Source: Deltaproteobacteria bacterium
GTDB taxonomy: Bacteria > Desulfobacterota > Syntrophorhabdia > Syntrophorhabdales > Syntrophorhabdaceae
DNA: 64,000 nt
NCBI GenBank assembly: GCA_029777945.1
Contig: JAKORG010000082.1
Location: 1 to 64,000, forward strand
Direction of reading: 5' to 3'
Below the pieces are notes generated by a model. The model was not told where the DNA came from. It saw nothing but the letters and a program-made list of their open reading frames with translations, and did not search any database. Shown here piece by piece: positions 41,006 to 58,534 of this stretch. The stretch's first letter is position 1. Every line of letters begins with the position of its first letter. The position numbers and the translations under genes are program-made.

Positions 41006-41015
41006 AGCAAAAAGG

Positions 41016-41045
41016 ATTATAAAGCATATGGATAAAAAATGTCAA
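41016..41045 (-). promoter_or_regulatory. Consensus promoter for the lipoprotein gene
   Basis: On the minus strand TTGACA (41045-41040), 18 bases, TATAAT (41021-41016). The predicted transcription start is about 4-6 bases before the ATG at 41005, which leaves almost no leader and no ribosome site. Confidence 0.6.
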
Positions 41046-41121
41046 ATATATTGAAAAAAAATTATTCACCTTAATGGATTGATAGGTACATTGTTTGCTA
41101 CATTTATTTTTTTCTCGATAG

Positions 41122-41130
41122 TGATATAAT
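41122..41130 (+). promoter_or_regulatory. Extended -10 promoter for glcD
   Basis: TGATATAAT is a perfect TGnTATAAT extended -10. No good -35 is found 17 bases upstream, as expected for this promoter class. Predicted start is near 41137, followed by an AAAGGAGA ribosome site and the ATG at 41156. Confidence 0.55.
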
Positions 41131-41155
41131 TGGCAATAAAGTAAAGGAGAAAGAG

Positions 41156-42556
41156 ATGTTTTATGAAATTGATCGATTTATCAAGAAAATAAAATCTTTT
41201 CTAAGAGAGGATCAAATTGTTTTAGACACAGATGGACTTTCCCATTTTTCTTATGATGCCACAGAGATAAGCCATAAACCACACATTGTAGTGTTACCTG
41301 AATCTACCAAAGAGGTATCAAAGGTCATGCGTTGCGCCTATGATTTAGATATACCCGTTACACCTCAAGGTGGAAGAACGGGTCTGTCGGGAGGTGCAGT
41401 CCCTGTAGTGGGCGGGGTTGTTATGTCATTACTGAGGATGAATAGGATTCTCGAAATAGATACGAAAAACCTTCAAATTGTGGTAGAGCCAGGTGTTGTG
41501 GCAGCTGATTTACAGACAGCTCTAAAGAAACATAACCTTTTTTTTCCTCCTGACCCATCGAGCACTGTGGAAAGTACCATAGGCGGCAATGTTGCAGAAA
41601 ATGCAGGGTATACTCGGGCAGTAAAATATGGTGTCACAAGAGACTATGTGCTTGGGCTTGAGGCAGTTTTGCCTGATGGCACCATTATAAATGTTGGTGG
41701 AAGAACCGTTAAAAATGTAACAGGGTATGACCTTGTGGCACTGCTTACCGGTTCTGAAGGAACGCTTGCTATTATTACAAAGATTATCTGTAAGGTGCTA
41801 CCCATGCCCCGTTTCAGAAGGACATGTATTGTTTATTTGAACGACCTTTTAGGTGCAGCAGATTTTGTTGTTTCCATCTTTGATAACGGCATCATTCCCT
41901 GTGCCATAGAGTTGATGGATAATTATTGTATAAATTGTGTGGCAGACTATTTAAGCTCAATAGAATTAAGAAGGGATGCAGAGGCACTTGTGCTCGTGGA
42001 GGTAGACGGTCAGCATGAGATTGCAACTGATGATGAGGCACAAAAGATTATAACCCTTGCCAAAAAAAATAATTCCATTATAGAATCTCGCCTTGCATCA
42101 GATGAAGTGGAGGCAGAAAGGTTTTGGAGAATTAGAAGGGATACACTACCTGCGCTTAAGGCAAAGGGAAAGGACCATCTTGAAGCAGATGTAGTTGTGC
42201 CCAGATATGCACTTGCCTTTCTCGTTCAGGCAATAAAAGAGATAGAAAAGGACCATATTGTTAAAATTGCTACCTTTGGTCATGCTGGTGACGGGAACCT
42301 CCACGTAACAATTCAGTATAGAAAAGGAAATTTTAAAGAGACAGAGGATGCATATAATGTCCTTGAAGAGGTGTATAAAAAGACAATTGCCATGTCTGGA
42401 AAACTGACAGGTGAACACGGCGTGGGCATTACGGTAAAAAACTATATGAAGCTTCAGATGACACCTGAAGAGATTGAACTTTTGAAAAGGATAAAATATG
42501 CCTTTGACCCTAAGGGGATTTTAAACCCCAGAAAGATCTTTCCAGAATACGACTAA
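41156..42556 (+). CDS. glcD: FAD-linked oxidase, glycolate/lactate oxidase subunit GlcD-like
   Basis: 466 residues. FAD-binding-4 domain with VTPQGGRTGLSGGAVPVVGG (about 60-79) and VGTTAG-like segment GGNVAENAGYTRAVKYGVTRDYV. The C-terminal FAD-oxidase domain holds FGHAGDGNLHV (about 378-388) and the final GEHGVGITVKNYM plus DPKGILNPRKIF. Family members oxidise D-2-hydroxyacids such as glycolate or D-lactate, often with a GlcF-type iron-sulfur partner, which is not adjacent here. Confidence 0.93.
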   Translation: MFYEIDRFIKKIKSFLREDQIVLDTDGLSHFSYDATEISHKPHIVVLPESTKEVSKVMRCAYDLDIPVTPQGGRTGLSGGAVPVVGGVVMSLLRMNRILEIDTKNLQIVVEPGVVAADLQTALKKHNLFFPPDPSSTVESTIGGNVAENAGYTRAVKYGVTRDYVLGLEAVLPDGTIINVGGRTVKNVTGYDLVALLTGSEGTLAIITKIICKVLPMPRFRRTCIVYLNDLLGAADFVVSIFDNGIIPCAIELMDNYCINCVADYLSSIELRRDAEALVLVEVDGQHEIATDDEAQKIITLAKKNNSIIESRLASDEVEAERFWRIRRDTLPALKAKGKDHLEADVVVPRYALAFLVQAIKEIEKDHIVKIATFGHAGDGNLHVTIQYRKGNFKETEDAYNVLEEVYKKTIAMSGKLTGEHGVGITVKNYMKLQMTPEEIELLKRIKYAFDPKGILNPRKIFPEYD

Positions 42557-42560
42557 AGCT

Positions 42561-44174
42561 TTATATCTCTTCAAAGGTAATAACTGAATTTGTTTTATAG
42601 CCTCTAACAGTCTTTTTTTTAATTTCTTCAAAAAAATATTTCACTGCCTGCTCATCACATGGTTCATATACAAAAGTTTTCTTTTCTTTATCGTATGCCA
42701 TAAATCTCTTTTCATTGATTAAAGCAGTGAAGATCTCTTTTATTATGTTATTATTTGACAATTCAAAGGGGGTATTTTTTATTTCTGAGACATCCATTGA
42801 TCCGTATTTATCGGCAAGGCTTTTTAAAAAATTTATAAACCTCGCAAGCTTCATAACAGTAAAAAGCGTGGTTCTTGAAAGATCAGGATTTACAGGGATT
42901 AGCACACTGGATCTCATGTACTTCATTTTTTCTTTCCAGTTTGAACCTAATACCATCTCACAGGCATCTATTTTTGGCACAACATAAAAGGCACTGGGGC
43001 CTAAAAGGCATCTTCTTCCTGAAAGAAAAATCATTGTGTCTAAAATGTGTTTTAGACTTTGTTGTGGAAGTCCTACTATAAAATGCACTTCCATTAAAAG
43101 CTCTGTTGATTCAAGGTATGGAAGGATTTCAAAAAAGGTATTGCTACTGAATCTTTTCTGTATTTTTAGAATAGAGGTCGACAAATCTACAATGGAAAGG
43201 TTTATTCTTTTGAAACCAGCTTCTATCATCTCTTTTACAATTACTTTATTCAAGGTTTCAGAATAAATGCCGTTCATTGCGGAAAGTATCAGATTTTTGC
43301 CTGAAAAGATCTTAAGGGTTTCTCTAAAATGGTTAACATCGTAGGTGAGCATATCGTCTTCAAAATCAATCCATTCAATACCGAGATTTAGACATTCTTC
43401 TAATTCCTCTTCGATGGTCTTTAGACTTTTTTTTCGAAAAGGCACAGGAAGTCTACCGCAGAAGGCACATCTAAAAGGGCAGCCCCTTGAAATGAGAAAG
43501 AAGGTATAGCGTTTTTTTCCAATGCGATAATTATCTGCATTTACTAAATTTCTTGCAGGAATAGTGTTGAGATCCCTTTCAATGTTTAGAGGTGATATAA
43601 AAAACTCTTCTTTTGATTTAAAGCAAAGCCTGTTTATGTCTCTTAAACAATGCAAATCTCCATTTTTCAATTTATGTATGAGATTATATAGAGGTGTCTC
43701 TCCTTCACCCCTTATTACGAAATCTACATTTTGGTTTTTCAGAACTTCTTCAGGCAAAGAAGTAGGGTGCGTCCCACCTAACACAGTGATTATATCTCTG
43801 TCTATTTCCTTTGCAATCCTTGCTATGTTTAAAGCCTCTTCAGCATAGGCGGAAAATAAAGAAGAAATGCATATTATATTTGGCTTTTCAGACTCAATTC
43901 GTTTTTTCATATCTTCTTCTGATGAGCCAAATCGATTGTATTTTTTAAATAGAGAAAAGGGGCTGTATAGATTTTCTTTATAATATTCGGATAATTCTGG
44001 GAATGGATTTTTTGCCTGTTTTGGTTTTATATATGTTCTAAAATCAATGATTTTCACATCAGCCAAGGATTCCACCTTTTTTGCAAGATAAAGTAGACCT
44101 AAAGGGTATGTTCTTATGCCTGTATCATAATAATCTTCAATAGGTGGCTGTATAAAAAGTATTTTCATTTGCAA
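42561..44174 (-). CDS. B12-binding domain radical SAM protein
   Basis: 537 residues. The N-terminal cobalamin-binding Rossmann-like domain spans about 1-150 (for example IVTVLGGTHPTSLPEEVL-type segment and VIRGEGE). The cluster motif FLISRGCPFRCAFCGR (about 223-238) gives CxxxCxxC. The radical SAM core and a C-terminal helical region follow. Broad family: methyltransferases, hopanoid or lipid modification, and many of unknown role. It converges with glcD, leaving 4 bases between the stop codons. Function not assigned. Confidence 0.85.
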   Translation of the reverse strand: MQMKILFIQPPIEDYYDTGIRTYPLGLLYLAKKVESLADVKIIDFRTYIKPKQAKNPFPELSEYYKENLYSPFSLFKKYNRFGSSEEDMKKRIESEKPNIICISSLFSAYAEEALNIARIAKEIDRDIITVLGGTHPTSLPEEVLKNQNVDFVIRGEGETPLYNLIHKLKNGDLHCLRDINRLCFKSKEEFFISPLNIERDLNTIPARNLVNADNYRIGKKRYTFFLISRGCPFRCAFCGRLPVPFRKKSLKTIEEELEECLNLGIEWIDFEDDMLTYDVNHFRETLKIFSGKNLILSAMNGIYSETLNKVIVKEMIEAGFKRINLSIVDLSTSILKIQKRFSSNTFFEILPYLESTELLMEVHFIVGLPQQSLKHILDTMIFLSGRRCLLGPSAFYVVPKIDACEMVLGSNWKEKMKYMRSSVLIPVNPDLSRTTLFTVMKLARFINFLKSLADKYGSMDVSEIKNTPFELSNNNIIKEIFTALINEKRFMAYDKEKKTFVYEPCDEQAVKYFFEEIKKKTVRGYKTNSVITFEEI

Positions 44175-44362
44175 TCTTGTTCTTATGGTTTTTGGATGAT
44201 TTAAATTTTATAGGTTATGCATATATCCTGTCAATAAATCGTGTGGTGTGTACTATCCCCCATTTTAACCATACACCCTACTAACCAAAATAAATTGTCC
44301 CGCAAAAGCGGGATAGCCATAAAGTTATTAATATAATTAAGAGATAAGAGGAGGGAAAAACT
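44175..44362. other. Intergenic stretch with a small hairpin
   Basis: Between the radical SAM gene and the first IS remnant. The only structure seen is TCCCGC-AAAA-GCGGGA (44298-44313), a six-pair stem with a tetraloop and no T-run; it may belong to the lost end of the insertion sequence. AT-rich, no coding potential noted. Confidence 0.4.
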
Positions 44363-44990
44363 ATAAGTCCGGTAGAAATCATTACATCAATTAAGATAAG
44401 GCGCCGTTGGTCGGCACACAAGAATAAAGCTATGGCGGAAGAAGCTTAAACAGCCAGGAAATAGCATCTCATTAGTAGCGAGGTAGAGATATTAAGGAAA
44501 AGCCCGTGAAAAAAACTGATATCGCGTATACCTTTATCCAGATATCCAGATCTAACCAGTTCACAAGAGGTAAAGAAGCAAGGAAGCCCATCCTGATGAT
44601 GCAAAATATCTACCCCTCATTAGGTATATTACTGACAATAGGCCTACCTATGACATGAATGATGAACCATTACAACTCTCTCAAGTAATATACCCTTCTG
44701 TTTTTATGTCTTTGAGATTCTCAATGCTTCTTTCCTATACAGCGAAAGACACAGTAGTATTTGCCCGTATGATGGGATTTGAGGTATCCATACTATAGTC
44801 CTTAAGTCCAATGAGCTTTTGTAAAAACCTTTAAGAAAGACTTTGTGTATATGCATAATCTTTCTTCCGTAAAAACTGTTATGTAATTATTGCCTTTGTG
44901 GTTTAAGGGTTTAAGATAAGATTACCAAGGGAATACAGGATGATGCAAAATAAGTTATAGGCGTGTCCGGTTTGACGGGGGCAAGCCCAT
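44363..44990 (+). mobile_element. Decayed IS2-like (IS3 family) insertion sequence, copy 1
   Basis: Plus-strand fragments of both transposase genes. OrfA: from 44363 (ATA in place of ATG), SPVEIITSIKIRRRWSAHKN, then after a frameshift near 44449 EQPGNSISLVAR, the helix-turn-helix of IS2-group OrfA. OrfB: DDAKYLPLIRYITDNRPTY near 44598-44655, then, after an internal deletion, pieces of the catalytic C-terminus with many stops, including LPREYR. The element ends with TGTCCGGTTTGACGGGGGC (44964-44982). Non-functional. Confidence 0.75.
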
Positions 44991-45013
44991 TCGGATCCCT
45001 TCGCCGCCATTTT

Positions 45014-46249
45014 TTATTCTATAATTTCCCAGAATGGTAAAAATTTTACCAAAGTATTATCAATTTTAATTGTTTCTTTAAAACCAGGATTCACAACCCA
45101 GGCTTCTTCAGGTTTGTATTTTGCTATAAAGCTTTTTAGCGACCTTTCAATTTTTGCATATTCTTTACATTTAACCTCAACTGGAATAATTCTGTCTTTT
45201 AAATCTATCACAAAATCTACTTCTGCTTTATCTTTTGTTCTCCACCAATGAATTGTGGCGGGAGTTTTGTCAAATTTTTCAATTAAGAGATGGTAAACAA
45301 GATTTTGAAATAAAAAACCTGCCTGAGAAGTTTCTGTGATTTTACCGAATAATCCTATGGCATAGTTTCTTAAACCCAAATCATTGAAATAAAAGACTGG
45401 AGATTTAGAAATTTCCTTTCTTACATTTCTGAAAAAGGGGGTTATTTTTCTTAGCACAAATGTTTTTTCAGCATAGTAAATATAATTCTTAATTGTCTGA
45501 AGAGAGGCTCCCAGAGTTGTTGCCAATTCATTGAAATTAACAGAGTTTCCTATTTGAGATGAGAGAATTTTTATTAAATTTGAAAAGACATTAATTCTTT
45601 CAATTTTCAACAAAAATGATATATCCTTTTCCATGTAACTTCTAAAAATTTCATTAATAATCATGTTTTTTTCATTAATAGTCTCTTCTAAAATCACTCT
45701 CGGATAGCCACCAAAATTAATGTATTCAATAAAAAAATTTATTGCCTGAGGGACTATTCTGAAGTAGTCTTTGAGCATTCCTTCATATTTGTATTCTGTC
45801 TTAAAATTTAAAAACTCCTTTAAAGAAAGCGTGTTCAATTCAAAAATTCTTTTTCTACCAATTAATGATTCATGTATTTTTTCTCTCAAATCAACACTTC
45901 CAGAACCAGATACAATGAATTTATACGGTAAATTCATATCATAAAGACCTTTTAGAAACAAACCCGCATTTTCTTTTCTCTGTATCTCATCAATAAAGAC
46001 ATATCCCTTTTTATTTCCAAATTCAAGTTTAAGCCTTTGAACAAGAAAGGACTGTGTTTTAAAAAAGGGCATATCATCTTCAAAATCAAGGCTCAAAAAT
46101 AAAGTTTTCTCTCCTTTTTTATTAAGATAATCCTGCAAAATATTCATCAATGTTGTTTTTCCTGCCTGCCTTGGACCAACTATCAAAGAAATCTCTTTTT
46201 TAGACAGATGTTCAATCAAATCCTGGAGAATATATCTTTTTATAAACAT
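45014..46249 (-). CDS. AAA+ ATPase with DUF4143 domain
   Basis: 411 residues. N-terminal P-loop VGPRQAGKTTLM (about 24-35), Walker B VFIDEIQRKENAG and sensor-like VSGSGSVDLREK. The middle holds a winged-helix-like segment (LATTLGASLQTIKNYI). The C-terminal DUF4143 part contains KDKAEVDFVIDLKDRIIPVE, a nuclease-like D-ExK layout (EVDFVI then PVEVKC). Such mobile AAA proteins are scattered in anaerobes, often as isolated cassettes, and some sit in toxin-antitoxin or defence contexts. Here it is intact between two IS remnants. Confidence 0.85.
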   Translation of the reverse strand: MFIKRYILQDLIEHLSKKEISLIVGPRQAGKTTLMNILQDYLNKKGEKTLFLSLDFEDDMPFFKTQSFLVQRLKLEFGNKKGYVFIDEIQRKENAGLFLKGLYDMNLPYKFIVSGSGSVDLREKIHESLIGRKRIFELNTLSLKEFLNFKTEYKYEGMLKDYFRIVPQAINFFIEYINFGGYPRVILEETINEKNMIINEIFRSYMEKDISFLLKIERINVFSNLIKILSSQIGNSVNFNELATTLGASLQTIKNYIYYAEKTFVLRKITPFFRNVRKEISKSPVFYFNDLGLRNYAIGLFGKITETSQAGFLFQNLVYHLLIEKFDKTPATIHWWRTKDKAEVDFVIDLKDRIIPVEVKCKEYAKIERSLKSFIAKYKPEEAWVVNPGFKETIKIDNTLVKFLPFWEIIE

Positions 46250-46300
46250 ACTTTATTATATACCCGAGAAAAATTAAAGTAAAGTTTTAAAATTATCGGG

Positions 46301-46573
46301 TTATTTTATTATTGGTTGCATCTCTAAGGCTGGATGATTAACTTCTGTGAGAAATTGTAGCAGGCCTTCGATGTCTTCAAAGATTGTCTCATCGGCAATT
46401 TTATCAAGTAACCAAGGGATGCCTTCTTCTTCAGCTCTTCTTCTAAGGCTTTCCCTATGTTTTCCTTTAACTCCTTTTTTTATCCATACAATTCTTTTTA
46501 TTCCGCCATCGCCTTTTAGGAACTTTCTTGAAGTAATAATGTGTCTACTTAGCTCAAGGAGGTAACTGTTTCT
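46301..46573 (-). pseudogene. acsB: C-terminal fragment of acetyl-CoA synthase (CO dehydrogenase/ACS beta subunit)
   Basis: Open for 90 codons to TAA at 46303-46301, with an in-frame stop immediately upstream and no start. Contains SRKFLKGDGGIKRIVWIKK, then LLDKIADETIFEDIEGLLQF and VNHPALEMQP at the end, which follow the C-terminal order of AcsB/CdhC. The nickel-cluster ligands of the full protein lie upstream of this piece and are missing. A true Wood-Ljungdahl gene may survive elsewhere; this copy is dead. It lies 52 bases before the start of the neighbouring ATPase gene, in the same orientation. Confidence 0.75.
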
Positions 46574-46909
46574 TTACAAAGGTATTCAATCCGAGTCAAG
46601 GTTGAAAATATTTTTCACCTCTATACAATATGATCTTATGGACTATCCTCTTGCATATGGTGTCTGAAAGGGTGGATTCTCCTGTATGTCATGTATCTAT
46701 TATGTCCTTTTTGCCTTTTTCATGGATAAGTCTTTTAGGTTGAATTGCATAGGACAAATGTTTTTTACTTATATACACCCTCTGGTATTTTTTGAGGGCA
46801 GTGTATTATATATAAGGCATGTTCATATTCAATGCAGGGTGGTGTGGCCATATTAGATAATTTCATAAAATTATCATCGAGCATAGGATAAGATGATAGA
46901 TTTGTTAAA
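46574..46909. other. Non-coding remnant stretch between acsB fragment and IS remnant
   Basis: No open gene. The only recognised item is the inverted copy (46761-46809) of a sequence also found at 53185-53231. The rest is AT-rich with stops in all frames. Confidence 0.45.
46761..46809 (-). repeat. Inverted copy A of a 45-base repeat
   Basis: On the minus strand reads TACACTGCCCTCAAAAAATA followed by CCAGAGGGTGTATATAAGT. The plus-strand partner at 53185-53231 has TACACTGCCCTTAAAATATA then CCGGAGGGTGTATAAGT. About 85% identical by eye; partner is inside an IS21-type left end. Confidence 0.65.
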
Positions 46910-47394
46910 TGTCAGGGACTGATGTCGCACCGACCTTGTCGTGTGAGGTCCCTCATAAACTGATTTCTTACATGAAAGGGAGAAAGCACTGTGAACCATA
47001 AACGTATATACCATATCATGAGGGTCAATCATCTTCTTTTGCCCAAGTATACGGGAAAACCAGTTAAGGACCCATAAATGAACCATTACAACTCTCTCAA
47101 GTAACATGCCCTTCCTTATGTCTTTGAGATTCTCTAAGCCCCTTTCCTATACAGCGAAAGACACAATAGTATTTGCCCGTATGATGGGATTTGAGGCCCC
47201 ATACTATAGTCCTTAAGTCCAATGAGCTTTTGTAAAGACCTTTAAGAGAGACTATGTGTATATACATGATCTTTCTTCTGCAAAAACTGTTATGGAATTA
47301 TTGCCTTTTTGGTTTAAGGACTTAAGATGATGTCACCGAGGGAGTATAGAAATATGCAAAATAAGTTAGAAAGGTGTCCGGTTTGATGGGGGCA
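46910..47394 (+). mobile_element. Decayed IS2-like (IS3 family) OrfB, copy 2
   Basis: Plus-strand OrfB pieces: VNHKRIYHIMRVNHLLLPKY from 46991 with TGKPV after it; then, past a deletion, TIVFARMMGFEAPYYSP, AFVKTFKRDYVYIHDLSSAK and MSPREYRNMQNKLERCPV, the catalytic and C-terminal segments of IS2-group OrfB. The end TGTCCGGTTTGATGGGGGCA (47375-47394) matches the end of copy 1. Bases 47076-47394 are roughly 85% identical to 44663-44983. Several stops; no OrfA. Confidence 0.78.
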
Positions 47395-47403
47395 AATCCA
47401 CAG

Positions 47404-47512
47404 GGGTCATATATACATTCGATGTTACCTTAGTCTTTTTGAGATATACCTTCATAGGTGTTTTGTAACCTAAGGCACTGTGATGTCTCTCAGTATTTTA
47501 GAAATCAAAGTA
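47404..47512 (-). mobile_element. C-terminal scrap of a second IS3-type transposase
   Basis: Minus-strand translation reads YFDF, stop, NTERHHSALGYKTPMKVYLK. This matches the ending (YN-ERPHSALGY-TP-EVY) of IS3-family OrfB integrases of another subgroup. It abuts the IS2-like end on one side and an istB scrap on the other, so it is a breakpoint-bounded remnant. Confidence 0.65.
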
Positions 47513-47730
47513 GTTGCTGATGATGTGGTAGCTACTGCCATATTGGACAGACTATTACATCACTGCTATCCCTTCTTCATTCAAGGTAAAAGCTATCGTT
47601 TAAATGAAATGATGGAAAAAAAGAAGGAGCAATGGAAAACATGAAAAGAATTAGAAGGTAAGGGTTTATGAAAACAATGGGTGGACTAAAATTGGTGAAA
47701 ATAGTGGATTAGTTTTGGTGATAATTGACA
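47513..47730 (+). mobile_element. IS21-family right end with istB C-terminal scrap
   Basis: 47513-47644 encodes VATAILDRLLHHCYPFF and GKSYRLNEMMEKKKEQWK before TGA, the C-terminus of IstB, the IS21 helper ATPase. It is followed by two tandem half-similar blocks (AAAATTGGTGAAAAT; GTTTTGGTGATAATTGACA) typical of IS21 right ends. The end lies 17 bases from the stop codon of the helicase gene. Confidence 0.7.
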
Positions 47731-47746
47731 CCTTTTATTCTTCGTT

Positions 47747-50305
47747 TTAAATTTCACTCATATCTGCCGGTTCATTGACAAAGGTGGCCTCATACTCCTT
47801 GCGGCTAAGCACTGTATCGTATAAGCCGATGCGCTCTTCTGTATGTTTATTGACGCCTGTATACACCAAACTCGAATCCTCATAGCGCTTGAATTTGTAC
47901 ACAGCATCGTTCATAAGCGCACTGTTGAAGACATTGAGACTGACCAATAGCTCAAAATCCTCGACATCGAGCCCTGTAACCCGCTTAAACAACCCCGGCT
48001 CGAGTTTGGTAATCACATCGCGCAGAGTGTGCTCGCGGTAGTCGGTCAGATACATAAAGATGGGGATACGGGTGGCAAACTTGATGAGTTTTTCCTGAAT
48101 CATCTTCCGTTTGCTCTTGTATTCCTTTTCGGCTTCGGAGAGTTCCCGTTTTTCTTCCCGACTCAGTTGCCGGTCGTTGGCCTCCCGTTTGGCTTTTTTG
48201 ACCGCTTCCGACCTGTTGATGATAGTCTCGATGTCCTGATTCAGATTGCGGAAGCCCTCGATGCTCATTAACGCCTGCATGGCTCTTTCGTTAGCCATTA
48301 GCCTTGCCAGGGTTTCATTATCCACATTGACCAAAAGCGCGCTTTCCCAGCGGCGCGCAAGCAGAGTAGCCGTGGTGCCGCTCATGGCCATGTCCAGAAT
48401 GCCCGCTGCGTCAATCTGCTTCATGGAACTGCCGTCATAGGCCAGCACAGGCAGGAAACGGATGAACTCGGCCACTTTGGCTTCCGGGCTGGTTTTCTCA
48501 TCTACATTCAAGCGGCTGGCATATTCAGCAATCTGCCGCAAGGCGCGATCAGGGGCAAAGTCGAAGATGTAACATTCGTGTTTGATGATCTCTTCGGCAT
48601 CGGGATGCTGCCCATCGGGGTTATACACCGTCCACGGCGATTGTACCCGAAAGGCTGCCTGAAAGTAGGTTTCGGGACTTGAACAGTTGCGTAGCATAAA
48701 GATGCCCGTCCAGGGGCGGACGGTCACGCCGGTTGTCAGTTTGCCGCAGGTAAGGGTGATGGTTTTGGTTGTGAGCGGGTCGCCCATAGCCCGCAACACA
48801 GGTTGGAGCGCGTCTACACCGATACCCGCCTCCGGTCCCGCGGCGACGATTACCTTGTAATCGTGATAAAAACGGTTCTGCCGCTCATTCAGCAGGTTTG
48901 CCATGGCATGGCAGGAGGCGACGCTGGGCAAAAACCACAGGGTGTGCGAAAGAACATTGAGCAGGCGCCGATCCGAAAATGGCAGGGGCGGTCGCCGTTC
49001 CTTGCCGAGCTTCAAGTTATCCACCGCGGTGGGCAAGAAGGCGCCGCGAATCAAATCCAGCCACTTTTGCACTTCATCTGCGTATTTGAAGCGGGCAAAT
49101 GGGCCGTGCCCGACTGCCGTAAAGAAAATGTTTAGATCAAACTCGTTGAATTCGCCCTTGAGGGCAATCTCGCGGATTTCATCGGGCAGTTGGTAGGTGA
49201 GTAGCACTATGCGCGGCAGCATGGCGTAGGGATTGTCTTCCCCCTTCCAGTTCTCCTTAGCTTGCTGTTCGTCTGAGTAGGTCCAGTTGAAAATCTGCTC
49301 TTCAATGAACTCGCCTGAGGCGATGGCGCGGAAGGGTGTGCCGGAAAGATAGAGATAGTGGTTGCTTGTGATGGGCAGAAAATCTTCCAGCTCTTCATCA
49401 CGCTCTTTGAGAAATTCTGCCGCCTCGCCAAGCGCAAAGCGGATTTCCTCTTCCTCCTCACCCTCAAATAGATCCTTGGCTTTCTCGCGCCAGGCGCCAT
49501 AGTGGTATTCGTCGAAAATGACGCAGTCCCAATGTGTGGTATGGACCCATTCATTCTTGGTTTTGATGCCGCCGGTGCTGGGGTTTTTGCCCAAAAAATC
49601 TTGAAACGAACCAAAGCAGACGACCGGGCGGTTCTTATCATACTCTGGATCGCCTTGCCGGGGCAAGTCCTTGCCGGCGATAAACTGCCAGCCTGTAAAA
49701 TCTACATGGCTCTTTAAATCCGATTCCCAGGCGCTTTGCACGGCAGGTTTGAAGGTGACGACCAGTAGTTTTTTCCAGCCCATTTTCTTTGCCAGTTGGT
49801 AGGCGGCAAAGGTCTTGCCGAAGCGCATCTTGGCATTCCAGAGAAAGTGGGAAGGTTTGCCAGTGGTTTTGGGATTGAATTCGCGGAAGTAGGCTGCAGT
49901 CCGTTCAACGGCCGCGCGCTGTTCTGGGCGCATGGGAAAATTGAAGGTACGCTGTTCCTCGTTTAACTCGCCGCGTTGAATGGCTAGGATGGCGGCGCGC
50001 ACATCCTCCACTGTGCACTGAAACCACTCGCCTTCGAGATTCGGGATACTGCGCTGACGCAGATAGCGGTGCACGTCGCGGTCAGTAAAGGTCGTCCCGT
50101 CATTGCGCATGGCCGATTCTTCCAGCACGATGCGGTAGGGCGGATCCCCCGGACGGATAGTGGGGTACTGCGCTGCCACCCGCTCGCGAACGTCCTTGGT
50201 GGTGTAGCCGATCTTGAGCAGGCCCGCGTATTGGGGATGGGTGTCCTCGTAGGCGTAGATTTTGGGCGTCGCCTCAGGACGCAGAGGGAAGAAATCTTTA
50301 CTCAT
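47747..50305 (-). CDS. SF2 helicase with N-terminal T5orf172/GIY-YIG-like domain
   Basis: 852 residues. The N-terminal 115 residues (KIYAYEDTHPQYAGLLKIGY, then TTKDVRERV) look like a T5orf172/MUG113 GIY-YIG-type nuclease module. The SF2 motor follows: motif I KMRFGKTFAAYQLAK (about 171-185), DEYH box VIFDEYHYGAW, motif III LYLSGTPFRA. The C-terminal 200 residues are charged and helical. Clearly richer in G+C than the core genes. It overlaps the end of the broken DUF1016 gene. I infer a restriction-type translocase or nuclease working with the two methyltransferase genes. Confidence 0.85.
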   Translation of the reverse strand: MSKDFFPLRPEATPKIYAYEDTHPQYAGLLKIGYTTKDVRERVAAQYPTIRPGDPPYRIVLEESAMRNDGTTFTDRDVHRYLRQRSIPNLEGEWFQCTVEDVRAAILAIQRGELNEEQRTFNFPMRPEQRAAVERTAAYFREFNPKTTGKPSHFLWNAKMRFGKTFAAYQLAKKMGWKKLLVVTFKPAVQSAWESDLKSHVDFTGWQFIAGKDLPRQGDPEYDKNRPVVCFGSFQDFLGKNPSTGGIKTKNEWVHTTHWDCVIFDEYHYGAWREKAKDLFEGEEEEEIRFALGEAAEFLKERDEELEDFLPITSNHYLYLSGTPFRAIASGEFIEEQIFNWTYSDEQQAKENWKGEDNPYAMLPRIVLLTYQLPDEIREIALKGEFNEFDLNIFFTAVGHGPFARFKYADEVQKWLDLIRGAFLPTAVDNLKLGKERRPPLPFSDRRLLNVLSHTLWFLPSVASCHAMANLLNERQNRFYHDYKVIVAAGPEAGIGVDALQPVLRAMGDPLTTKTITLTCGKLTTGVTVRPWTGIFMLRNCSSPETYFQAAFRVQSPWTVYNPDGQHPDAEEIIKHECYIFDFAPDRALRQIAEYASRLNVDEKTSPEAKVAEFIRFLPVLAYDGSSMKQIDAAGILDMAMSGTTATLLARRWESALLVNVDNETLARLMANERAMQALMSIEGFRNLNQDIETIINRSEAVKKAKREANDRQLSREEKRELSEAEKEYKSKRKMIQEKLIKFATRIPIFMYLTDYREHTLRDVITKLEPGLFKRVTGLDVEDFELLVSLNVFNSALMNDAVYKFKRYEDSSLVYTGVNKHTEERIGLYDTVLSRKEYEATFVNEPADMSEI

Positions 50306-50692
50306 CGCTTAACAACCTCTCCAGTTCTGCCTGCAATTGTTGCTTATCGAAAATATAAAATAGTGGCTCCAACTTAATAGGTGAGACAGTGTCTCACTTT
50401 TTGGGAATGTCAAATACAACTTGCGCATATAGACCAGATTGGATCGGCTAAATCCCTTGCCAAACTCGGCTGTGAGATCGCAGGAGAGCCGGTCTAACAG
50501 TTCGCTGCCATATTCCGCCTTGATGTTGCCCTTTTGTTCAAACTCCACGATGTGGCGATCAATGTGCCAGTAGGTCTGCACCAAAATGGTATTGACCGAA
50601 CGGTCTGCCTGCTCCCTGCCGCGGCGCAACAAATCGCCTATCTGTTCTTTAAGCTGCTGATAAGTGTTTATGGAGAGGACATCACTCATCAT
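50298..50692 (-). pseudogene. DUF1016 (YhcG-type) nuclease gene with internal deletion
   Basis: The reading frame from the ATG near 50692-50689 encodes an intact DUF1016 N-terminal domain (QLKEQIGDLLRRGREQADRS; FGKGFSRSNLVYMRKLYLTF; LSHLLSWSHYF). It then runs out of frame to a stop at 50309. In the shifted frame FDKQQLQAELERLLSDE ends at TAA 50300-50298, matching the C-terminal tail of this family. The PDDEXK nuclease domain between is gone (about 180-200 codons). The true start overlaps the methyltransferase stop. Confidence 0.75.
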
Positions 50693-52241
50693 CCTCATCT
50701 CCGTTAGTAGCGGTATTGGTTTGCTCGCCGTTGTCTCCAACATTACGAATTCTCGAATCGATCAACTTCCATTCGTCATCTGTGATTCCCCAACGTTCAC
50801 ACAGCATTTCATCAGTGTATATGCATTCGTATTTGCCTAAATCGGGAACAAGGAAGAAGTTTTCTCTTGTAACATCTTGAGACATAACTGTCTGTAATAA
50901 AAGAAACCTAACCGTCTTGGTAAATAGGTAAGACTTAAACGAAAGAACTTCGGATTCCAAATCAAAAGCACAAGCAACAAGCCACGTCTCTGTACAACAC
51001 TCGCCAGGTTTAGCAATTCTAGTATTTCCTTCGTAGTAAAATGCGATTGGCTCAGAAAAGTCGGTCTGTCCTGCTATAGGAGCACGTGGAATTAGCAATT
51101 TCCACTTTGTCAACAGATTTCTATCATCGCGCACATCCGCGGGATCGGCAAAACTCAGCCCAATGCGCTGTTTGAACCAACAAGGAATTCCCGTTTCCTT
51201 CGGGGTGTAATCACCACTCAGTCCAAATGGCTTGCGCGGCGAAATTAGATCGCTTAAGCGTTTGCCTCCATTTTCATTCTTCGCAAGCACTTTTCGCACG
51301 ATAGGAATAGCACGACTATCACGAATAAAAATTCCAAACTCATCCAATTGCCTACTTAAGATATATTTTTGTCCATCAAAGAAGTTAGTAACCTCGCATA
51401 GACCCTTTGAATCTCTTTCCCACAAGAAATAGCATATACCTCCAGCAATATCTACACCAGGGAAAACACTTGAACTGTTTGGGAAATCTACAAGTTTTCT
51501 AATTTGCTGATCCGCAAGCATCTTTGCTCTAAACTCATCTAGACCCTTCCCCCCGGCAAACCACCTTGACGGGATGATCATCGTCAAAAACCGGGGCTGG
51601 AGTTTTTTCGCCTGCTCGACAAACTTATGATAGATCGGCGTAGCGCTTCTTCCGTAGCCCCCATCACTCAACTGATACGGCGGATTGCCGATAATAACAT
51701 CGAATTGCATATTAAAAATCTCCTCCGGTTTATTGGTGTGAATAAATTCGTAGGCGTGGCTTTCCAATTCCGGGCCGCGGTCGTATTCGCTCTGGCTGGC
51801 ACCGCACCAGATACAGCGCCCGTTTTGCCAGGTATGCTCAATGCGCCGGAAGCGGATGTTTCCCTGTTCATTGGCAAAGCCTTCCACCACCGAGTATGTG
51901 CCGTTAGCCGTTTTCGAGCAATAGACCGTGCGGCGGGAGAGCAGCGCCGTGATTTCGGTAATGGCAATGCCGAAGAGCTGCCTGGTGAAGATGTGGTTGA
52001 TGCGCGCCTGTCGGTCTGGAATGTGTTCCTCCAGCCCAACAAGTAGCCGCCTGGCAATCTCGCGTAAGAAAACGCCCGATTTACAGCAAGGGTCAAGAAA
52101 GGTGGCGTTCGGGTCGCGCCAGAGGTCCTGCGGCAGTAGGTCGAGCATCTGATTGACGATGTTGGGTGGGGTGAAGACCTCATCACTACTGAGGTTGGCC
52201 AGACACGAAAGCACATCGGGGTTGTAATTGCTAATCGCCAT
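50682..52241 (-). CDS. Eco57I-type N6-adenine DNA methyltransferase
   Basis: 519 residues from the ATG at 52241 (a GTG three codons earlier is possible). Opening block [18 protein letters not shown] and motif I region [15 protein letters not shown] (unusual: DPxxxSG rather than DPxxGxG). Catalytic motif IV is [17 protein letters not shown] cysteine pair (WCGAS and the preceding C) lies between. The C-terminal half ([20 protein letters not shown] onward) resembles target-recognition regions. Full length. Overlaps the preceding methylase gene by 11 bases. Confidence 0.88.
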
Positions 52242-52911
52242 AGGCTTCACTCACCTTGAGGAAATGGACCAAAGGATAACTGCGTGTTTCCGTCGGGACA
52301 AAAACCCGCTCGCCCCGGTCGGACACATAGACATTATTTTTTGTAAACAAATCATCCTGCTGAGTAAACTCATTAGGGAAGAGTTCTGCAAAAACAAAAT
52401 CGCGGCGTTTAATCAGGCTGTTGTGTAATGGGAAAGACCACTCGGCAAAGATAATCTGATGGGTTTCTGGTCCAACCGTCTTTAACTCCAATGCGTCGCC
52501 CCAGATGATGTTCTTGGCTAAGATGTAGCACAGCGTGCGGCGGCAGGCCTCTTTGGTTTTTGCGTTAAACAGCGCGGTGTAGCGTTCATCGGCAATCTCA
52601 AACAACTGTTGGCGGCAGGCGATAACGTTGTCTTCCAAAATATCAATACCGTAAATCGCAGAAACTGCCAGCACCATATTACGCTCAAAATCGAGCTGAC
52701 TCCGCCGGTAGGTCTTTTCCACCACATCTAATTTGCGGCGCAAAATTTCGGTCAAAAAATTTCCTGTGCCGCAAGCCGGCTCCAAAAAGCGCGAATCAAT
52801 GCGCTCGGTTTCCTGCTTGACCAAATCGAGCATGGCATTCACGATTTCCGGCGGGGTGTACACCTCACCGTAATCTCTTACCCGCTGTTTGGATCTTATT
52901 TGGTTTTTCAT
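52231..52911 (-). CDS. Partner DNA methyltransferase-like protein (motif I only)
   Basis: 226 residues from [20 protein letters not shown]; an ATG at 52926 or 52941 is possible, but a start at 52998 lies upstream of the promoter. Contains [18 protein letters not shown] and SAM motif [18 protein letters not shown] find no NPPY-type motif IV, so alone it is unlikely to methylate DNA; the C-terminal 60 residues differ from Eco57I methylases. First gene of the cluster, directly coupled to the full methyltransferase. Role could be regulatory or as a heteromeric SAM-binding partner. Confidence 0.82.
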
Positions 52912-52969
52912 ACTCCTCTGGTTCATCTCTGGGGCTAACATTATTTTTAATTTTTCAATATATGGAGCG

Positions 52970-52998
52970 ATTATATAAATGATAATGGGTGATGTCAA
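52970..52998 (-). promoter_or_regulatory. Consensus promoter of the restriction-like cluster
   Basis: On the minus strand TTGACA (52998-52993), exactly 17 bases, TATAAT (52975-52970): both hexamers perfect. Expected transcription start near 52963. This fixes the first coding start downstream of that point. Confidence 0.8.
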
Positions 52999-53070
52999 GA
53001 TTTCTTTAGCTTAAACCTTTGATTTTTATTATCATTTCAATATTGATAGTTTATTGTGCTTGCGAATTAT

Positions 53071-53473
53071 TGTAAATTCCGCTCAATTTCGATCGCCAAT
53101 TCCGGTTTTAATCGAACACTTTTTGTGTTTTATCGGAATATCTGTTTTATATAAATCAGAGCATGATTCTCCCTCCTGCCTTTTATGATACACTGCCCTT
53201 AAAATATACCGGAGGGTGTATAAGTGAAAAAGAAAGGGAGGAAGACATCAATGAAAAAAACTAAAAGAAATTGCCCGGCTGCTATTGGAATGCAACCTTG
53301 ATATACGTCCTATTGCCAGGGCATGCAATATATCCACTTCAGTAGCTACAACCTATGTGGAGAAGTTTAAAGACCTCGGCGCTACTCATCGAGAAATCTG
53401 TGAGATAGATGAAGATATTTCTTATACAATTATAACCGAAAATGTTCTCACTAAAATATATGATTTTGTCTAA
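53071..53473 (+). mobile_element. IS21-family left end with istA N-terminal scrap
   Basis: Starts TGTAAATTCCG at 53071 with tandem blocks (TTTCGATCGCCAATTCCGG; TTTTAATCGAACACTTTTTG) typical of the left end of one IS21 subgroup. Further on, 53255-53473 encodes KLKEIARLLLECNLDIRPIA then RACNISTSVATTYVEKFKDL, the helix-turn-helix N-terminus of IstA, cut off after about 70 codons and out of frame with the upstream ATG. The subgroup differs from the right end at 47.7 kb. Confidence 0.68.
53185..53231 (+). repeat. Copy B of the 45-base repeat
   Basis: Plus-strand partner of 46761-46809, here upstream of the istA scrap. Opposite orientation to copy A, so the two bracket the IS2 copy 2, istB scrap and restriction-like cluster. 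Confidence 0.65.
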
Positions 53474-53691
53474 TAAAATAAAAACAGGTCATATAAAGAA
53501 AAGCTCCGTTATAAAGATGCCTTCTGAAAATAATAGTCGTGCCAAATAAATCATTAATAATTATAAAGTGTTATCATTCATACTCCCTGAAAATCCCGTC
53601 CAGGACTGCAAATTCACCTCTGGGGACAGTTTGGAGACAGTGTTTTTTGGGGGTTTTTGGATACTACCTCTAATGATTTCAATAAGTTACA
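53474..53691. other. Non-coding stretch between IS21 scrap and tRNA-Ala
   Basis: No gene recognised. Contains the phrase GGGGACAGTTTGGAGACAG near 53622-53640, a type of sequence often found beside transposon ends, and a T/G run at 53643-53658. It is next to the 3' end of the tRNA gene, where integrative elements often insert; I found no second copy of the tRNA 3' end. Confidence 0.4.
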
Positions 53692-53766
53692 TGGTGGAGG
53701 TGAAGGGGATTGAACCCTCGACCCCCTCGTTGCGAACGAGGTGCTCTCCCGCTGAGCTACACCCCC
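53692..53766 (-). tRNA. tRNA-Ala (anticodon CGC)
   Basis: On the minus strand the 75-base sequence folds into a full cloverleaf: acceptor GGGGGTG with CACCTCC, anticodon stem CCTCG/CGAGG around loop TTCGCAA, T-arm GGGTTCAATCCC, and encoded CCA. The G3-U70 wobble pair is the alanine identity element. It reads GCG codons. Its 3' end faces the plasticity zone. Confidence 0.95.
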
Positions 53767-54691: not shown

Positions 54692-57600
54692 TCAAACATT
54701 ACCTTTTATTTTATCACACCATAGTCTTGCATTTTGAAACATCTTAAGCCACGGTGATGCTCTTAGATTTTTATTCATCTCTTCTGGCATATAGGGCCAC
54801 TGCCATTTTAAAAATGCCCTTTCAGGGTGAGGCATAATTGCCAAGTGTCTGCCATCTTCTGTGCATAAACCTGTAATGCCATAAGGTGAACCATTGGGAT
54901 TAAATGGATAACTAAAGGGATGTATATCCGATTCAAAACCATCTTCTATTCCATCGTCATTTACAAAAACAAGGGGGACAAGATTTTTTCTCAACACCTC
55001 TTCTAAAATCATGGGATCAGGAAAATAAACCCTTCCTTCACCGTGGGCAACCCAAACACCGAGGATTGAACCTTCCATGCCTTCAAACATAATTGCCGGG
55101 CTCTTTTTTATTTTTACAGTTACCCATCTTGATTCAAATCTGCCTGATAGATTCTTTACAAATCTCGGTTGCCTTGTATCTTCTAACCCCTGCCACGGCA
55201 CCCATCCGAGTAAAGCAAATAACTGACAACCATTGCATACCCCCAGTGAAAATGTATCCGGTCTTCTGTAAAATTCATCAAACATCTCTTTAAGCCTGCT
55301 ATTAAACCTTATGACTGAGGCCCATCCTTTTGCGCTTTCCGGCACATCGGCATATGAAAACCCGCCCACAGCTACGAGTCCACTGAATTTTTCCAGGGTT
55401 ATCTTGTTTGAGATGAGATCCGTCATTGTAATATCCCATGGAGAAAATCCAGCATGATAAAAGGCAGATGTCATTTCTCTGTCGCCGTTGCTACCTTCTT
55501 CTCTCAGGATTGCCACATTTGGTTTATCGTTTATTTCTATTAAAGCCCTTGGTGTTTCTTCTGGCTCAAAGGTTATTAAATATTTGGGCCCTTTTCTATC
55601 GTATATGTTCTTTTTCTCCTGGTCAGCACATTTTGCGTTTGCCTGCAAACGCTCTATCTGATAAGATGTTTCTTCCCATACTGATCTTAGTTTTCGCATA
55701 TCTCCATGAAGCACTACCTTACCATTATATTCCACAGTAATTTCCTTTTCGATTTTCGTTTCACCGATATTAAAAAACTCAATACCATATTCTTTAAGTA
55801 TGCATTCCACCTTATTTATATCTTCTTTTTTGCATTCCATAACTGCGCCCAATTCTTCTGCAAAAAAACGCTCTATGGGGCTCGAATCCCCCTTCATCCT
55901 TATATGGACGCCACAATTACCTGAAAATGCCATCTCAAGGAGTGTAACGATAAGCCCTCCATCGCTTATATCATGGCCTGAAAGTATAAGGTCTTCATAA
56001 ATAAGTCTCTGAATTGCTGCAAAAGTATTTTTTAAAATGGCTGGATCATCAACATCTGGTGATTTATCACCAATTCTCTTGAACACGCATCCTAAAATGG
56101 ATCCGCCGAGTCTTGTTTTACCTTTTGCAATATCAATAAATATGAGATTCGTTTTACCGGGTTTTTTTATATCTGGGGTCACCTTTTTTGTTATATCAGG
56201 CATGGTTGCATAGGCTGAAATAACAAGCTCTCTTGGTGATTTAACGATCTCATCACCTACCTTTGTTGCCATAGAGAGACTGTCTTTTCCTCCATCCACT
56301 GCAATACCTAATTTAATCATCATATCGCTCATGGCCATAACAGCATCGTAGAGCGCTGCACCCTCTCCTGGAAGCTTAGGTGCCCACATCCAGTTAGCAG
56401 AACATTTTATATCCTCAATACGTCCAATGTAAGCCCACATGATATTTGTTATTGCTTCACCAACAGACATCCTTGCCCCTGCCTTAGGGTCAACAAGCAT
56501 CTTGATGGGCTGTTCTCCAATGGAGGTAGCAGCACTAGTTAATCCAAAGTGTGTCTGGGCAATAATTGCCATGTCTGCAACTGTTAGCTGAAGAGGACCG
56601 CAGCACTGCTGCTGTGCAATAAGCCCTGTAACGCTTCTGTCCACTTTGTTTGTAAGAAACCTCTTAGAACCAACGGCAAGGTCTTTTAAGACGAGTAATA
56701 GTGCCGCTTCTAATGTAATATCATCAGGTAAATTTATTGGTTCAAGCCTTGCATCGATCTTTTTATCTATAAATGTCTTTTGAGGAATATTTCCCAGCAC
56801 CTTATCAAGATTTAGATTAACAGGTGTAGTATCATCCCTTTCATCGTGAACAATAAATCTGCCATCCCCTGTAACAATACCCAAAATCTCACAGTTTACC
56901 TTTTCTCTATTGCAAATTTCCTCAAATTCCTTAATCCTTTCAGGTTCTATTAAAAGACCGCATCTTTCCTGATATTCGGCAATCCATATCTTTAATACTG
57001 AAAGCGTGGGGTCTCCCAGTTTAATCCTTCTTATTTCGATCTTTCCCCCTGCCTTTTCCACAAGTTCTTTTAAAACATTGGCAGGCCCCCCTGCACCTTG
57101 ATCGTGTATGCTTATGATGGGATTTCTCTCACCCATCTCAATGCAAGCCCTAATTACCCTGTTCATCTTCTGTTCCATTTCTGCATCGCCACGCTGGACC
57201 GCATTAAAATCTAATTCTTCCTCGTTTTCACCTTGGAGTTTACTCGATGCAGAGCCTCCTCCTATTCCAATACCGTATGCAGGACCCCCAACCTGAACGA
57301 TGAGCAAGCCTTTTTTTGCCTCACCTTTTTCTATATGTTGTGCATTGATTTGACCTATACCACCAGTAAACATGACCTTTTTAACCCAGCCCCAGCGTTC
57401 TCCATTTGATATCCTCTGGTCAAAGGACCTGGTAAAACCGGCAATTATTGGCTCTCCAAACTTATTCCCGTAATCGCTTGCACCGTCACTTGCCTTAATC
57501 TCTACTTCAAGATTACTGGCAAGGTTTGATGGATAAGGAAAATCTTTAGTCTCCCAGGGCAATTCATAATCGGGGATGAGTAGATTTCCGGTGCAATAGC

Positions 57601-58534
57601 CTGCTGTTCCCGCCACAACAAGTCCTCCCCTGCCTGTTGCCTGGACATCCCTTATTCTACCTCCTGTCCCTGTTTCAGCCCCAGGAAAAGGTGCAACGCC
57701 TGTGGGAAAATTGTGGGTCTCAGCGGTAAAGATGATATGATAGTGAACCTTTTTTTTCTTAAATGCCGAAGGATAACCAGGTTTTTCTGGTAAAATAGTA
57801 TAACACTCAAAGCCTCTTATAGCGCTTGAGTTGTCCTTAAAGGCAATTATGCTGTTGCCAGGATTTTTTTTAAGCGTTGATTTAACAATATCCATTAAGG
57901 TATAAGGTATTTCTTTTCCATCGATGATCTGTTTACCTTTAAAATACCCATGCCTTGAATGTTCACTGTTGGCATTATCAAGGTCTCTTATTTCTACAAT
58001 TGTTGGGTTTCTACCTTCCTCTTTTACAAAATAGTTGTAATAAAACAACCTATCCCATTCATCCATGGCAAGGCCTGGCACCTCAAGGAGGGCATCAGGG
58101 CCTTTTTCTTTTAGAGGGATTTCGTAAACCTCCTCTTCTTCTGCCTCTGTTTCAAAAGATTCTATGGGAGTGGCGTAGACGCATTCTGTCATCCGGTCGT
58201 GGTTTTTCTTTATAAAATCTTCTTTGTCTATCCCTTCATCTATGAGATATCTTCTTGACCTCTCTATGCGTAACACTTTATCAAGCCCGCAGGTCCTGCA
58301 TATAGACACGATATTTGTAGAAAATGCTGTGGCAAAATTCATGCGAGGCCCTATCTCAATAACATCGGATTTTTTATTCAGTGCAGAATTTATGGAAATG
58401 CTTTCAATTATAAATCCATCTGCTAAAATGTACTTCAATGTAATAAGTTCATCTTCTGTAAGGGGAGAAGAAACGTCTACATTATAACAAAATTCAAAAA
58501 AGGGTGTCTTTTTAAGATAAAAACGTAACATCAT
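54692..58534 (-). CDS. purL: Phosphoribosylformylglycinamidine synthase, large single-chain form
   Basis: Converts FGAR, glutamine and ATP to FGAM in purine synthesis. 1280 residues, the full-length PurL with fused glutaminase rather than the PurS-PurL-PurQ set. The synthase half includes TAETHNFPTGVAPFPGAETG, GIGGGSASS and HDISDGGLIVTLLEMAFSG. The glutaminase domain has ALREEGSNGDRE-type opening (AILREEGSNGDRE), nucleophile GVCNGCQLFALLGW and MPHPERAF. Upstream of purN-like and downstream of a kinase/regulator pair. Confidence 0.96.
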   Translation of the reverse strand: MMLRFYLKKTPFFEFCYNVDVSSPLTEDELITLKYILADGFIIESISINSALNKKSDVIEIGPRMNFATAFSTNIVSICRTCGLDKVLRIERSRRYLIDEGIDKEDFIKKNHDRMTECVYATPIESFETEAEEEEVYEIPLKEKGPDALLEVPGLAMDEWDRLFYYNYFVKEEGRNPTIVEIRDLDNANSEHSRHGYFKGKQIIDGKEIPYTLMDIVKSTLKKNPGNSIIAFKDNSSAIRGFECYTILPEKPGYPSAFKKKKVHYHIIFTAETHNFPTGVAPFPGAETGTGGRIRDVQATGRGGLVVAGTAGYCTGNLLIPDYELPWETKDFPYPSNLASNLEVEIKASDGASDYGNKFGEPIIAGFTRSFDQRISNGERWGWVKKVMFTGGIGQINAQHIEKGEAKKGLLIVQVGGPAYGIGIGGGSASSKLQGENEEELDFNAVQRGDAEMEQKMNRVIRACIEMGERNPIISIHDQGAGGPANVLKELVEKAGGKIEIRRIKLGDPTLSVLKIWIAEYQERCGLLIEPERIKEFEEICNREKVNCEILGIVTGDGRFIVHDERDDTTPVNLNLDKVLGNIPQKTFIDKKIDARLEPINLPDDITLEAALLLVLKDLAVGSKRFLTNKVDRSVTGLIAQQQCCGPLQLTVADMAIIAQTHFGLTSAATSIGEQPIKMLVDPKAGARMSVGEAITNIMWAYIGRIEDIKCSANWMWAPKLPGEGAALYDAVMAMSDMMIKLGIAVDGGKDSLSMATKVGDEIVKSPRELVISAYATMPDITKKVTPDIKKPGKTNLIFIDIAKGKTRLGGSILGCVFKRIGDKSPDVDDPAILKNTFAAIQRLIYEDLILSGHDISDGGLIVTLLEMAFSGNCGVHIRMKGDSSPIERFFAEELGAVMECKKEDINKVECILKEYGIEFFNIGETKIEKEITVEYNGKVVLHGDMRKLRSVWEETSYQIERLQANAKCADQEKKNIYDRKGPKYLITFEPEETPRALIEINDKPNVAILREEGSNGDREMTSAFYHAGFSPWDITMTDLISNKITLEKFSGLVAVGGFSYADVPESAKGWASVIRFNSRLKEMFDEFYRRPDTFSLGVCNGCQLFALLGWVPWQGLEDTRQPRFVKNLSGRFESRWVTVKIKKSPAIMFEGMEGSILGVWVAHGEGRVYFPDPMILEEVLRKNLVPLVFVNDDGIEDGFESDIHPFSYPFNPNGSPYGITGLCTEDGRHLAIMPHPERAFLKWQWPYMPEEMNKNLRASPWLKMFQNARLWCDKIKGNV

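Follow-up and report, generated by a model that had tools for sequence, protein, structure and literature searches.

A dead acsB tail, probably of Thermodesulfovibrio/Nitrospirota type, beside an IS21-type element end in a Desulfobacterota genome

Our analysis concerns a remnant of acsB, the gene for acetyl-CoA synthase, in a window of 64,000 nucleotides, by which we mean the whole stretch of contig JAKORG010000082.1 that was analysed. The minus-strand frame from 46573 to 46301 comprises 90 open codons followed by the stop TAA. An earlier note, made from the letters alone, had taken this frame for the C-terminal piece of an AcsB/CdhC-like gene, and the search against AcsB that it had called for returned clear similarity. 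In profile searches the frame matches PF19436 (ACS_CODH_B_C) with an E value of 7.4e-25 and 88.4 bits, passing the curated cut-off of 25, with residues 7-89 aligned to positions 162-245 of the 245 in the profile; it matches NCBIfam NF040764 with an E value of 3.3e-26, residues 8-89 aligning with model positions 624-705 of 705. Solved AcsB chains are matched as well, with E values down to 2.3e-18, and the homology of the remnant to AcsB is far above chance. The NF040764 score of 91.8 bits fails the equivalog threshold of at least 800 bits and covers positions 624-705 only, so that the remnant is a fragment and no functional AcsB. The stretch of Moorella AcsB (1oao) to which it aligns is residues 647-728, past the A-cluster cysteines, which we take to be located before these residues; the frame would therefore give no catalytic product.

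The claim that the last 90 codons of acsB survive holds for 78 codons plus the stop, assigned to 46301-46539 on the minus strand, and fails for codons 1-12 of the frame (46573-46538), which are insertion sequence (IS) DNA. The acsB portion proper runs from 46537 (or 46539) to 46301, since bases 46538-46539 can be assigned to either side of the junction, and amounts to the last ~11% of the gene. A TAA at 46576-46574 lies immediately upstream of the frame, and the sole in-frame ATG, GTG or TTG is an ATG five codons ahead of the stop; with a stop upstream and no usable start, the remnant is dead as a gene, as had been supposed. The A-cluster and CdhC regions are likewise not covered by an open frame here, and a small functional protein made from the tail was ruled out because a start codon is absent.

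Abutting the remnant is the right end of a decayed IS21-type element (46540-46720, minus strand), whose terminus starts with TGT on the plus strand. Read on the minus strand from 46720 to 46540, this interval consists of a decayed istB C-terminus followed by the element end. The stretch 46538-46720 recurs at 94.6% identity on another contig of the assembly (C54:6969-7152), where it adjoins unrelated genes, and an istB gene of contig C66 (PF01695, E 8.7e-67 in a profile search) is matched more weakly, at its end. As codons 1-12 of the frame lie inside the repeat shared with C54, only 78 codons belong to acsB proper. With up to 3 mismatches allowed, the terminus TGT(A/G)TCTACTTAGCTCAAGG occurs at two sites in the genome, window position 46540 and C54:6971, and its reversed control at zero sites genome-wide. 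The istB homology and the recurrent terminus support membership of the IS21 family; in comparison with the intact istA/istB relative on C66, what is left here is a decayed fragment, the istB C-terminus and the element end, with the rest of the element gone. A pair of terminal inverted repeats was not found in the genome at up to 3 mismatches, the two terminus sites sharing one orientation, and the element is incomplete. The junction between IS and acsB is sharp, at 46538-46540, and in Thermodesulfovibrio acsB DNA the similarity to the remnant begins at the same codon, right after the IS21 terminus. This agrees with the proposal of the earlier note that the acsB piece was cut by an insertion sequence within an IS-rich zone. 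A decayed N-terminal scrap of an IS21-type istA, like that on C66, lies at 53177-53420 on the plus strand (frames read by eye, bounds approximate). Its part 53177-53231 also occurs, in reverse, at 46761-46819, and IS21-type scraps are therefore present on either side of the restriction genes described below.

The other IS remnants said to adjoin the acsB piece are present too. Decayed IS3-type transposase scraps, both on the plus strand, were found at 46950-47400, with relatives on contigs C59 and C101, and at 44249-44989; 47078-47400 repeats 44662-44989 in direct orientation, and we take the IS3 family name of both scraps from their domain content (rve/HTH_21). The second of these lies on the far side of an intact AAA_14/DUF4143 ATPase gene (45014-46249, minus strand), whose start follows the acsB stop at a distance of about 50 bases. 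A composite transposon formed by the two scraps around the ATPase gene and the acsB tail was considered but is not claimed: they are broken pieces of one transposase type with 87% identity, and intact ends were not seen. The ATPase was matched in 16 of the 20 genomes searched; the best match outside its own genome, at 56%, is in Thermodesulfovibrio SKYB9 (G424), and the best-scoring match among nine genomes of the same family or order is at 35%. The other two Thermodesulfovibrio genomes give a weak match or none, and in the Nitrospirota loci examined the ATPase does not neighbour acsB, so that as evidence on the donor it is only a hint. On the other side of the remnant, restriction-modification-like genes occupy 47747-52998 on the minus strand and encode a T5orf172/ResIII protein, a short DUF1016_N protein, an Eco57I-type methylase and a second short methylase; their G+C content is 0.47-0.54, higher than the 0.37-0.40 of the native flanks.

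All of these features, the IS scraps, the ATPase gene, the acsB tail and the restriction-like genes, are held in a segment of ~12.7 kb (41006-53687) that has no counterpart at the corresponding site of a genome of the same family (G012) and that ends at the 3' end of a tRNA-Ala (CGC) gene (53692-53766, minus strand), which G012 also carries. The order in G012 is purL, a formyltransferase-like gene, tRNA-Ala(CGC) and then, directly, the counterpart of the 39803-41005 gene, with the further order kept. None of seven tested window genes (41156-52998) has an equivalent in this G012 stretch, one weak radical-SAM match lying elsewhere in it; about 12.7 kb are thus extra in the window or were lost in G012. 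Synteny was compared in three relatives, of which G012 is the informative one, the G001 contig being just 3,099 bases long and G002 having other genes beside purL. Integration of a genomic island at the tRNA site was rejected, since a duplicate of the last 22 tRNA-Ala bases was not found in 39.5-54.5 kb (up to 6 mismatches) and no integrase was noticed by eye among ORFs of at least 120 aa.

Given that IS repeats are places where assemblers join wrongly and that such repeats are present at this site, in an assembly of 102 contigs with an estimated contamination of 2.31%, a Thermodesulfovibrio-like piece might have been misjoined into the contig during assembly or binning. We consider this quite improbable. 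The contig is 151,861 bases long, and the flanks on both sides are syntenic with G012, the flanking genes being 66-90% identical, which places the contig in the host lineage. The IS scraps that surround the remnant turn up again on many further contigs of this assembly, and decay is seen in the remnant too.

The assembly (2.40 Mb, completeness 97.45) encodes a single intact acsB, some 740 codons long, on the minus strand of contig C67 and ending at 1189, and a CdhC domain was found on this contig only. Beside it stand a Prismane/CODH gene, an acsD-type gene, a RACo gene and, named by eye, folD-like and cooC-like genes; acsC is sited on C87, and Prismane/CODH-family genes number three in all, on C67, C37 and C31. 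C67 starts about 1.2 kb downstream of acsB (L054 1-1188), with no ORF of at least 120 aa in that interval, and acsC is on a separate contig. The earlier note had suggested looking for a full acs/cdh cluster; an acs cluster with an intact acsB is present elsewhere in the genome, and the reading of the remnant as a record of pathway loss does not stand, as an intact resident acsB and its partner genes remain. The broken end of the gene, sought at the same suggestion, is absent from the assembly: a full-length Thermodesulfovibrio AcsB query recovered the resident gene and the remnant only.

The resident gene belongs to the same family as the remnant, which corresponds to the same protein region; it is intact, sits in an acs cluster and is of Desulfobacterota type, whereas the identity of the tail to it is just 44% with the 90-residue query and 45% over the 78 residues. 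Among the genome and its relatives, 76 of 99 genomes match the tail, the best outside its own genome at 53%, and across the phylum 251 of 395 do so, the best, again outside its own genome, at 61%; a few phylum genomes, such as G064 and G083, have two matches each. In a collection of species genomes, at least 143 candidate stretches encode a relative of the tail, and 80 of them were kept. The closest among the matches listed are the Thermodesulfovibrio metagenome-assembled genomes (MAGs) SKYB9, Tomsk_34_156 and SKW4, at 67, 67 and 72% over 78 residues, and the rows that follow, again among the matches listed, are almost all labelled Nitrospirota. The C-terminal ending PIIK is common to the remnant and all three Thermodesulfovibrio rows, and these four have ED(I/V)E at a place where EDSE stands in most of the other Nitrospirota rows printed. 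The likeness to Thermodesulfovibrio AcsB (L058, L059 and L060, which belong to NF040764 and PF19436), which the earlier note had not anticipated, extends over all 78 residues; in contrast to those proteins, the remnant has no start and no A-cluster region and is directly preceded by a stop codon.

Two trees were built, and in both the phylogenetic signal of the remnant comes from 78 residues only. The first took the final 260 residues of 73 AcsB rows and, with them, the remnant, whose residues occupy 30% of the columns. Here the remnant groups with the three Thermodesulfovibrio rows with support of 100/99, and the resident AcsB is placed with the host's own family, grouping with MAGs labelled Syntrophus and Deltaproteobacteria; we assign the host to Desulfobacterota on this grouping. 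Forcing the remnant together with 11 rows of the host family or order is 43.1 log units worse (AU p 0.00084), and forcing it with 22 Desulfobacterota rows is 30.8 log units worse (AU p 0.0233), both unions being rejected, the second less strongly. In the second tree, built from 59 rows and the last 82 columns, the three Thermodesulfovibrio rows are once more the closest to the remnant, which no starred set contains; a union with 17 Desulfobacterota rows is not rejected (AU p 0.195), and a position as sister to the resident copy is (AU p 0.0043). The end branch of the remnant is long in both trees (0.35-0.44). These placements make a donor of Thermodesulfovibrio type likely, though not proven.

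The same comparisons bear on a native origin, in which an anciently diverged second acsB paralogue of the Desulfobacterota lineage, lost elsewhere, would have been truncated here by the IS21-type element, its likeness to Thermodesulfovibrio reflecting a shared ancient type. The tail columns taken alone are compatible with such an origin, and the genomes with two tail matches might be read in its favour; against it, no match above 61% appeared among the 99 relatives or the 395 phylum genomes, and the 260-column test rejects it. We judge it rather unlikely.

The 78 codons of the tail contain no stop or frameshift, and by the NG86 method dN between the remnant and the three relatives is 0.21, 0.25 and 0.19, with dS not computable for the first and 1.83 and 1.66 for the others, while dN among the three Thermodesulfovibrio relatives is 0.13-0.19. 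The low dN (0.19-0.25) relative to dS (1.66-1.83) argues that purifying selection was acting while most of the divergence arose. In 27 Nitrospirota-clade rows 29 columns are invariant, of which 26 are kept and 3 are changed in the remnant, and six Nitrospirota-clade rows given the same treatment show 0 to 2 changes in 29-31 invariant columns; at variable columns, the remnant has residues unseen in other rows at 10 of 49, and the six control rows at 0 to 4 of 47-49. To judge from these substitutions, the gene would still have been working when most of the divergence arose, and its decay since then would be slight.

The occurrence of a fragment and an intact acsB in one genome might suggest that the resident gene was duplicated and that the copy decayed long ago, and a duplicate broken by insertion sequences had been offered in the earlier note. 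This can be largely set aside as very improbable: a decayed copy so far from the resident gene would hardly keep 78 codons free of stops and frameshifts, the remnant has residues in common with Thermodesulfovibrio rather than with the resident and keeps 26 of the 29 invariant columns of the Nitrospirota-clade rows, and the low identity and the rejected sister position speak against a duplicate.

We propose instead, with reasonable confidence, that the remnant is the dead C-terminal tail of a horizontally acquired acsB of Thermodesulfovibrio/Nitrospirota type, truncated by an IS21-type insertion. According to this model, a gene for the CO-methylating acetyl-CoA synthase of this type was transferred horizontally into a Desulfobacterota genome; an IS21-type element would then have inserted within it, its right end abutting codon 1 of the tail that survives, the part of the gene upstream of the insertion would have been lost later, and IS3-type insertions and restriction genes would have come to surround the tail. 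We infer the direction of transfer, the order of these events and the former presence of a full-length working gene at the site. Acquisition of a gene by horizontal transfer, followed by its reduction to an IS-truncated relic, is a common kind of event; the acsB tail is an ordinary kind of gene fossil, without function by itself, and probably records a failed gene acquisition.

A more far-reaching version is that the lineage once had two CODH/ACS systems side by side, one native and of Desulfobacterota type, the other a complete cluster of Nitrospirota type that was purged save for this tail. If true, this would be a captured instance of a core carbon-fixation enzyme whose replacement failed; we regard it as unlikely. 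A point against the proposed acquisition is that a second acs gene of Thermodesulfovibrio type was not found in the assembly, where an acsC search gave, besides the resident gene, a short, conserved Fe-S domain elsewhere and three matches with E values of 0.02-0.26. The short domain was rejected as a further acsC relic, as it lies within a different ORF, one of 176 aa on contig C81 (L184 1147-1677), part of which resembles, at 53% over 49 residues, the Fe-S domain at the N-terminus of AcsC.

Transfer of CODH/ACS between phyla is usually inferred from surviving genes, and a dead foreign acsB beside a living native one would, if our reading is right, show directly that a gene was acquired and did not last. 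A 2026 study places all of its analysed Desulfobacterota AcsB in one clade, for which a vertical origin with outward transfers is inferred, and reports that Thermodesulfovibrio received a formate dehydrogenase gene by transfer (PMC12827605). A Nitrospirota-type acsB relic would, if true, be an inward transfer, adding to the picture of outward ones drawn in that study. Our literature searches found no earlier report of this relic, which is no proof that none exists. Screens that score presence or absence by HMM hits can meet relics such as this one.

As a side observation outside the segment, PurL, encoded at 54692-58534 (1280 aa), is 74-85% identical in G012, G001, G002 and G005, matches at only ~28-30% in three genomes of the same family (G003, G008 and G013), and reaches 59-64% in G425, G427, G428, G429 and G431, five genomes behind Nitrospirota-labelled loci. 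This distribution may reflect an older transfer involving Nitrospirota.
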